In this document: piece after piece, positions 22,432-24,074 of the stretch
How positions within the stretch are numbered: the first letter of the stretch is position 1
Layout of the letters: each line of letters opens with the position of its first letter
Assembly (NCBI GenBank): GCA_947311765.1
Contig: CAMZLS010000007.1
Location: 1 to 51,124 of the forward strand
DNA: 51,124 nucleotides
Source of the DNA: an uncultured Helicobacteraceae bacterium
GTDB taxonomy: Bacteria; Campylobacterota; Campylobacteria; Campylobacterales; Sulfurimonadaceae
Direction of reading: 5' to 3'
Translations under genes and position numbers: made by a program
The notes under the pieces: model-generated
Databases searched by the model: none
What the model was told of the DNA's origin: nothing
The model's input: only the letters and a program-made list of their open reading frames with translations

Positions 22432-22555
22432 AGATTTTCTCACCTAAAATCTCCTTAAAGTTTTTAGCACGACTTGGTGGTTTGGAGTTTATCTCTTTTA
22501 GGGTAACTGCATTAGCGCTAAAGGCTAAGGCAGTAAGAAACAAAAGTTTTATCAT
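22370..22555 (-). pseudogene. Truncated N-terminal remnant of a soluble lytic transglycosylase gene (slt)
   Basis: The frame begins at ATG 22555, overlapping the yggT stop (ATGA). It encodes a signal peptide (MIKLLFLTALAFSANA) and a short segment with KPPSRAKNF resembling the start of epsilonproteobacterial Slt proteins. It then runs into sequence antisense to the lipoprotein gene and stops after 61 codons. Campylobacter jejuni has gltX-yggT-slt in this order (Cj0845c-Cj0844c-Cj0843c, from memory), which supports a deletion of nearly all of slt. A genuine small secreted peptide is the alternative. Confidence 0.55.
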
Positions 22556-22842
22556 ACAACATTAGCGATAGAATTAATCACACTGACAAGTAAAACATCA
22601 GCAATCTGAAGAGCGATGATAATAATAAGCGGTGATAAATCAACACCATTGTAAACACTAGGAATATAACGACGCACAAGTACATAGGCAGGTTCTGTGA
22701 TACGATATAACAGCTGAACGATAGGATTATTTGGGTCAGGTCTTACCCAGGTCAAAAGCGATGCGATAATAACAACCCAAATATATATAGTTACAAGATT
22801 GTGCAAAATCCCACCTAGTCCAAAAATAATATTACTCATCAT
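22552..22842 (-). CDS. YggT-family membrane protein
   Basis: The 96-residue protein has the YggT pattern: a first hydrophobic helix with ASLLTWVRPDPNNPIVQLLYRITEP, then a second helix pair rich in Ile, Leu and Val (SPLIIIIALQIADVLL). YggT proteins are inner-membrane proteins of uncertain role, implicated in osmotic or envelope stress in some bacteria. It overlaps gltX by four bases and the slt remnant by three. Confidence 0.88.
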   Translation of the reverse strand: MMSNIIFGLGGILHNLVTIYIWVVIIASLLTWVRPDPNNPIVQLLYRITEPAYVLVRRYIPSVYNGVDLSPLIIIIALQIADVLLVSVINSIANVV

Positions 22843-24074
22843 TTTATAATCTCCTCAAGATAATTTTTTAAATAGGGATAAAGTTTTGAAATATCAACTT
22901 CATCTTCTGTGCCCGTAAGCAAGAATGAGAGAGGCTTTAAGAGTCTATCACCTTCAAACTTACTCTCTTTTTCAAGATAGGCTATAAATGAATCAAACTT
23001 CTCAAAATGAGGTGCTTTTTGAAAAATATCACATATGGTTTGAGCCTCTTTTGTAAAAGAGTCAGGAACTTTTTTAGAAGCAAAGATTGGCTCGATTTTT
23101 GCACGAAGTTCTTGCAAAGTAGCTACTTCTTTAAGATAAATCTTAGCGATTTTACCAATATCATTATCCGCAAAACCAACATAACGAGAGAGCTCTTTAT
23201 CATCAAGCACTATAAGATGCTCTTTATTGATAGAGCAAAGTCTCTCTTTATCAAACTGCGCAGGGGCATAAGAGATACTCTCAAGAGAGAACCACTCTTG
23301 CGCCTCTTTTAGGGTGAAAATTTCTTTTGGTGTTGTATTGTTTAAGCAGATAAGATAGTTCGCTATAGCTTCAGGTAAAAAGCCCTCTTCAAGCAGTGAT
23401 TTAACACTTACATCATCTGAGATACTAGGAAGATGCGCATATTTTATTTTTTTATTGTAGTTCAAAGCTTGGCGAATGGCTATCTGTTTGGGCGTATTGT
23501 CTCTGTGTGCTTCATCACGAATAATCATAGAGATATCACTAATCATATCATCAACCGCAGATGCGAAGTTTTGGGTAGAGTTTTTATCCTTATCTAAGAT
23601 GATAAAACTATCAATCTCCTCAGGCGTATAATCACTCTCACCCATAATAATATCGCTTACATGTAAGCTCTTTTTAGGTTTTTTAATACGGATAACAAAA
23701 GGGTTCATATTGTCAATAACAAGTTCAGCAGGTAAGTTTTCACAAGTACCATCATAAGGAGTCTCGTCCTCTAGCTTTTTTGGTCTGCAAAAACAGTTAA
23801 ATGCCTCTTTTTCATGAAGAAGTTGCAATGCCATAGCGCGATGATGTCTTAGATTGTTGCTTTGGTAAATAACTTCTTGGTACTCGATACCAAAAAGCCC
23901 TAAAATATCAAGAATTTCTTGGTCTTTTCCTTTGATATTGCACTCTTTGTCAGCATCTTCAATGCGCACAATAAAAGCTTCACTATTTTGTTTTGATATA
24001 AGATAGTTGAAAATTGCAAAACGGAGATTTCCGATATACATATCACCCGTAGGTGATGGTGCGAAACGTAGCAT
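22839..24074 (-). CDS. gltX: Glutamyl-tRNA synthetase paralogue with altered catalytic signatures
   Basis: The 411-residue protein aligns by eye along its whole length to discriminating or non-discriminating bacterial GluRS: FAPSPTG at the start, RIED, NTPKQ, and the LLEEGFLPEAIANYL and C-terminal YPYLKNYL segments. Key motifs depart from the family. The HIGH-equivalent is YIGN (Tyr13 instead of His), RIEDTD is RIEDAD, R-G-E-D-H is RDEAH (186-190), and the KMSKS loop between HLP (214-216) and VSVKSLL is missing. The frame is intact with no stop. Epsilonproteobacteria usually have two GluRS, so this may be an inactive or repurposed copy. It begins an operon with yggT and the slt remnant. Confidence 0.85.
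   Translation of the reverse strand: MLRFAPSPTGDMYIGNLRFAIFNYLISKQNSEAFIVRIEDADKECNIKGKDQEILDILGLFGIEYQEVIYQSNNLRHHRAMALQLLHEKEAFNCFCRPKKLEDETPYDGTCENLPAELVIDNMNPFVIRIKKPKKSLHVSDIIMGESDYTPEEIDSFIILDKDKNSTQNFASAVDDMISDISMIIRDEAHRDNTPKQIAIRQALNYNKKIKYAHLPSISDDVSVKSLLEEGFLPEAIANYLICLNNTTPKEIFTLKEAQEWFSLESISYAPAQFDKERLCSINKEHLIVLDDKELSRYVGFADNDIGKIAKIYLKEVATLQELRAKIEPIFASKKVPDSFTKEAQTICDIFQKAPHFEKFDSFIAYLEKESKFEGDRLLKPLSFLLTGTEDEVDISKLYPYLKNYLEEIIK

Follow-up and report, generated by a model that had tools for sequence, protein, structure and literature searches.

The gene studied here lies on the minus strand of a 51,124-nt stretch of DNA (the window) from the assembly of an uncultured Helicobacteraceae bacterium, and encodes a second glutamyl-tRNA synthetase, GltX2 (GluRS2). 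The frame has zero internal stops, and its product passes the curated cut-off of the TIGR00464 gltX_bact profile (296.9 bits against 289.95) and is 61–63% identical to the GltX2 of relatives and about 35% identical to GltX1, which places it in the GltX2 group. The features of the locus are the following:

22839..24074, minus strand: gltX2 (GluRS2), 411 aa, catalytic motifs gone (open frame, profile match, alignment)
24027..24038, minus strand: HIGH site, now YIGN, residues 13–16 (alignment; intact relatives have HIGN)
23949..23966, minus strand: RIEDTD, now RIEDAD, residues 37–42 (alignment)
23742..23795, minus strand: zinc-binding motif C94, C96, Y107, C111 (motif as defined in PMC4381286)
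23505..23519, minus strand: RGEDH, now RDEAH, residues 186–190 (alignment)
23409..23429, minus strand: site of the deleted KMSKS loop, HLP-SISDD-VSVKSLL (alignment)
23166..23195, minus strand: ELSRYVGFAD helical patch, shared by intact and dead GltX2 within the family
22926..22964, minus strand: anticodon-binding loop GLKGKNxxKPLR, degenerate in the window as SKFEGDRLLKPLS (alignment)
22552..22842, minus strand: yggT, its start and the gltX2 stop overlapping as ATGA

All four altered signatures reported by the first-pass annotation (YIGN, RIEDAD, RDEAH and the deleted KMSKS loop) were found in this open 411-aa frame. Since N is the usual residue at the fourth HIGH position in GluRS2, the change of H to Y is the sole genuine loss at that site. 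From P to VK, across the former KMSKS loop, 7 residues are left against 18 in intact homologues. The zinc motif is 10 residues shorter than in most relatives, through a deletion inside the zinc domain, and retains its four ligands, which show no variation among 58 aligned sequences, both intact and dead. Judged from the motif losses, the protein is expected to be catalytically dead and to charge no tRNA. The AlphaFold2 model (pLDDT 91.7, pTM 0.89), whose best Foldseek matches are all bacterial GluRS with a TM-score of about 0.8–0.85, predicts a confidently folding protein with the bacterial GluRS fold, which agrees with the initial proposal of a catalytically dead but folded synthetase. The same annotation had described the tRNA-binding C-terminus as well preserved, and this had to be revised: the window protein gives no match to Pfam Anticodon_2 and the anticodon loop has been lost convergently, as described below; the overall fold of this region is still predicted.

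The window genome contains one other PF00749 protein, a canonical GluRS1 of 461 aa on contig C25, which is the second complete gltX that had been looked for, and it also contains GatB. No GlnRS was found in this assembly, which is 94% complete and split into 148 contigs; its 33 tRNA matches include no tRNA-Gln, tRNA-Phe or tRNA-Ile. Because the assembly is incomplete and fragmented and also misses these tRNAs, the missing GlnRS is weak evidence. In G001, a genome of the same genus, GlnRS is present and GltX2 is even more degenerate than in the window, and for the window genome we infer the GlnRS step.

A search of 228 genomes of the family, taken as that of Sulfurimonas, provided 205 gltX2 genes. 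With motif classes resting on one alignment, and many genomes being fragmented assemblies, 103 of these genes keep KMSK, 82 are loop-deleted, 17 have a substituted motif and 3 are truncated; among the 202 that could be classified, the damaged genes, loop-deleted and substituted alike, have open frames. Sequencing error was in practice ruled out as the source of the motif loss: a loss of this kind is found in 81 other genomes of the family, including G001, which carries a different form. Intact GltX2 proteins are mostly 432 aa long. Against 18 residues at this site in intact forms, the loop-deleted ones retain between 7 and 12 and, since this number varies, several different deletions are likely; the full-length proteins with a substituted motif look like intermediates. 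In one assembly two overlapping gltX2 pieces were observed (G137:C98 and G137:C174), probably reflecting mixed strains or contamination.

Of 30 genomes with a dead GltX2, 29 contained a third PF00749 protein, about 750 aa long, which was present in only 3 of 30 in a set picked for full-length GltX2; two of these three (G046 and G199) carry a substituted KMSKS. NF011291 identifies this protein as a GlnRS carrying a GatB/YqeY tail. Of the 228 family genomes 111 have it, and its distribution follows the state of GltX2: damaged GltX2 was found with GlnRS in 89 genomes (G085, with a loop-deleted form, being one example) and without it in 10, intact GltX2 with GlnRS in 11 and without it in 92 (p = 1.6e-32 by a Fisher test, which ignores relatedness). 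When independent pairs were drawn on the well-supported branches of the GltX1 tree, leaving aside the rows of incomplete genomes with no detected gltX2, the commonest outcome was 6 concordant and 0 discordant pairs, with a median sign-test p of about 0.03; on the GltX2 tree the result was weaker, with 5 concordant and 0 discordant pairs and a median p of 0.125. The HIGH and MSKR motifs are intact in all 43 GlnRS sequences inspected. The initial expectation that loss of one of two GluRS would affect the supply of Gln-tRNA was therefore not borne out, as a GlnRS with its motifs intact is found in the relatives whose GltX2 is dead.

Outside the family, Arcobacter BM504 combines a dead GltX2 with a GlnRS of 765 aa, while two other Arcobacteraceae and one Sulfurovum have an intact GltX2 and no GlnRS. 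The GlnRS of BM504 is 77–80% identical to those of the family, GltX1 only 58–63%, and this difference indicates horizontal transfer of GlnRS. Some genomes hold GlnRS together with a still canonical GltX2, from which we infer that GlnRS came first and the loss in GltX2 second. Genomes with GlnRS and canonical GltX2 motifs include G043, G053, G065, G109, G216 and G227, possibly recent GlnRS acquisitions. It was also observed that glnS often lies directly beside gltX2 (L261, L262, L263, L277, L284 and others), usually in divergent and sometimes in tandem orientation (G084, G144), an arrangement suggestive of insertion or co-regulation at that site. No tRNA-Gln gene was found in any of the loci examined.

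The association has gaps on both sides. GltX2 is retained in 102 of the 111 genomes with GlnRS, and no gltX2 was found in the other nine, of which four (G128, G211, G175 and G037) are 93–100% complete; because of these nine, GltX2 is not universally needed. Conversely, GlnRS was not detected in G051, G052 and G064 (loci L022, L100 and L106; 92–97% complete) despite a loop-deleted GltX2, and these may be true exceptions. A search for a different GlnRS in these three and in G184 found none; the G184 assembly is incomplete, since it misses GltX1 too. The third PF00749 protein of G034 was rejected as a GlnRS, being by eye a GluQ-RS-like frame of 275 aa. This frame (L408, 1456–2283) adjoins an HI0933-like flavoprotein frame, in an assembly with 7% contamination.

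The losses appear to have occurred many times. On a GltX2 tree of 108 rows, built by a quick search with the KMSKS columns removed and showing long branches, many dead GltX2 sit beside the intact GltX2 of their own genus, and counting losses as irreversible gave about 24, including the Arcobacter one, which is an independent loss outside the family. After collapsing branches with an SH-aLRT under 80 or under 95, and merging the dead children of one polytomy, this count became 18 or 8, respectively; plain parsimony gave 19 changes on the GltX2 tree and 16 on the GltX1 tree, which likewise came from a quick search and has long branches. A single loss, inherited vertically or spread as a glnS-gltX2 cassette, was rejected as the sole cause, because dead GltX2 group with intact forms of their own genus and the deletion sizes differ. 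Repeated loss alongside a replacement enzyme, in a gene that selection still preserves, suggests that the old enzyme has a second job.

We then compared selection on the two classes by approximate NG86 estimates of dN/dS. Among loop-deleted pairs the ratio was 0.11–0.32 for the 40 closest listed, with a median of 0.21 over 203 non-independent pairs; the median for intact pairs was 0.076. Pooling non-overlapping pairs gave 0.172 for loop-deleted (13 pairs) and 0.045 for intact genes (16 pairs), so that the loop-deleted genes, too, are under purifying selection. The catalytic segments were relaxed about 8.5-fold in dead relative to intact forms (0.203 against 0.024 in the first catalytic part, 0.154 against 0.018 in the second); the corresponding values were 0.221 and 0.046 in the stem-contact part, 0.235 and 0.072 in the anticodon part, 0.136 and 0.050 in the helical patch (2.7-fold), and 0.110 and 0.061 in the zinc domain (1.8-fold), the best preserved domain. 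The relaxation of gltX2 is thus mainly in catalysis, where the regional ratio rises most.

The same picture is seen at single sites. In intact forms 161 sites are fixed, and 103 of these persist in 90% or more of the dead clades; this conservation may partly mirror fold stability. The changes that recur among dead clades are K397E (16 of 24), D199E (15), N16D (10), G197S (9) and N179D (8), in addition to the loop; the anticodon loop is convergently charge-reversed in dead forms. By contrast, dead forms keep the zinc ligands C94, C96, Y117 and C121 (reference numbering), and ELSRYVGFAD is kept nearly throughout, one substituted form reading ELYRYVGFAD; in Arcobacter the helical patch has a distinct version, common to intact and dead proteins. 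Selection and retention together support a functional dead GltX2.

The reading we favour, with a probability of about 0.75, is replacement by GlnRS plus retention of GltX2 for a non-catalytic role. Intact GltX2 is predicted to mischarge tRNA-Gln with Glu, providing the substrate of GatCAB; a horizontally acquired GlnRS would then have taken over the synthesis of Gln-tRNA-Gln, displacing the indirect route. In the genomes with GlnRS, the catalytic sites (HIGH, RGEDH and KMSKS) and the basic anticodon loop have repeatedly disappeared from GltX2, which has nevertheless stayed full-length. GltX2 would have been kept for a second, non-catalytic function already present in the intact protein, and its probable seat would be the zinc-binding connective domain together with the helical patch next to it. 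GatCAB is commonly regarded as necessary for Asn-tRNA in Campylobacterota. For the transamidosome of Thermotoga maritima, GluRS is reported to contact GatCAB with its zinc domain, which was argued to be the core role of the domain (PMC4381286), and some epsilon-proteobacteria hold two GluRS, GlnRS and GatCAB together (PMC3927822). The likeliest single mechanism, put forward only tentatively, would be a partnership of dead GltX2 with GatCAB, structural or regulatory in nature; what was observed on this point is the conserved zinc motif and the GatB still present in the window genome.

Alternatively, dead GltX2 could be a tRNA-binding regulator or chaperone, which would bind tRNA-Gln or another tRNA through the zinc/connective domain in order to regulate, store or proofread it. 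The best preserved domain of dead GltX2 is the zinc domain, which positions the tRNA acceptor arm (PMC4381286), and Helicobacter pylori GluRS2 reads mainly the acceptor stem of tRNA-Gln (PMC9976931); we nevertheless consider this role rather unlikely, as the basic anticodon loop has become acidic in most dead clades (K397E) and the window protein is unmatched by Anticodon_2. A pseudogene in progress, made redundant by the gain of GlnRS and decaying without selection, would explain a dN/dS about fourfold above that of intact forms and the four genomes with GlnRS, at least 93% complete, that show no gltX2. The matched frames of the listed copies, however, contain no stops, the pooled dN/dS is 0.17 for the whole gene, falling to 0.11 in the zinc domain, gltX2 persists in nearly all genomes with GlnRS and the fold is predicted with high confidence; neither a broken frame nor a dN/dS near 1, by which a pseudogene would be recognised, was found for loop-deleted gltX2. 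Such decay is therefore improbable, and the early pseudogene considered in the first-pass annotation gives way to a gene retained by selection.

Slightly less probable still is that only the frame is kept, for translational coupling to the overlapping yggT, with an idle protein. Of 96 intact genes 93 have the ATGA overlap, as do 58 of 77 loop-deleted ones, with 14 more overlapping as TAATG or TGATG, but coupling requires an open frame and not specific amino acids, and dN/dS stays far under 1 and differs from one part of the protein to another. That the altered active site still charges tRNA, as the retained Glu-binding R3, Rossmann core and many fixed sites might suggest, is highly implausible given the lost HIGH histidine, the changed RGEDH, the absence of the whole KMSKS loop and the coincidence of the losses with a replacement GlnRS. 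As to the possibility, raised at the outset, that many relatives share these changes and have proven charging activity, the loss did turn out to be common to many relatives, but what accompanies it is a replacement enzyme and not proven charging activity.

Replacement by GlnRS with retention of GltX2 may be compared with known systems. Intact Campylobacterota GluRS2, such as that of H. pylori, belong to the same gene group and have the same fold, intact relatives being of the HIGN type, and intact GluRS2 within the family of the window show the same gltX2-yggT overlap; unlike them, the window gene has lost HIGH, RGEDH, KMSKS and the anticodon loop, and most relatives with such losses have GlnRS. 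In the hyperthermophile T. maritima, as cited in PMC3927822, GluRS2 is reported to charge neither tRNA-Glu nor tRNA-Gln and is thus likewise a second, non-charging GluRS, as is predicted for the window protein; there, however, it is said to be a GluRS1 duplicate carrying an H-phi-G-G motif, whereas the loss seen here recurs from a GluRS2 that is intact in relatives, together with the gain of GlnRS. Dasgupta and Basu (2014, PMC3927822) reported a GlnRS with a YqeY tail and GluRS2 in 6 of 10 epsilon-proteobacteria, and suggested that this GlnRS was possibly non-functional; in our data, instead, GluRS2 is the damaged protein and the GlnRS motifs are intact (43/43). KMSKS is not mentioned in the accessible part of their text, and a literature search, largely outside subscription journals, found no description of motif loss in GluRS2.

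Among synthetase folds that serve something besides charging the cognate tRNA are HisZ and GluQ-RS, the former an old single repurposing and the latter an active truncated enzyme; in dead GltX2, by comparison, losses recur and almost the whole length of the protein is kept. The inference published on GlnRS would be reversed, since in these bacteria the acquired GlnRS appears to be functional and the damage lies in GluRS2. More broadly, Campylobacterota GluRS2 may be bifunctional, combining the charging of tRNA-Gln with an independent structural or regulatory role of its zinc/helical module, probably with GatCAB, which the gain of GlnRS would have exposed; we put this at somewhat less than even odds. 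If true, this would amount to up to some twenty natural separation-of-function experiments and a recurrent class of synthetase pseudoenzymes. These bacteria also provide a replicated natural experiment in which a synthetase stripped of catalysis and anticodon reading is still kept by selection, and in which a hidden second function of GluRS2 becomes directly testable in cultured strains.
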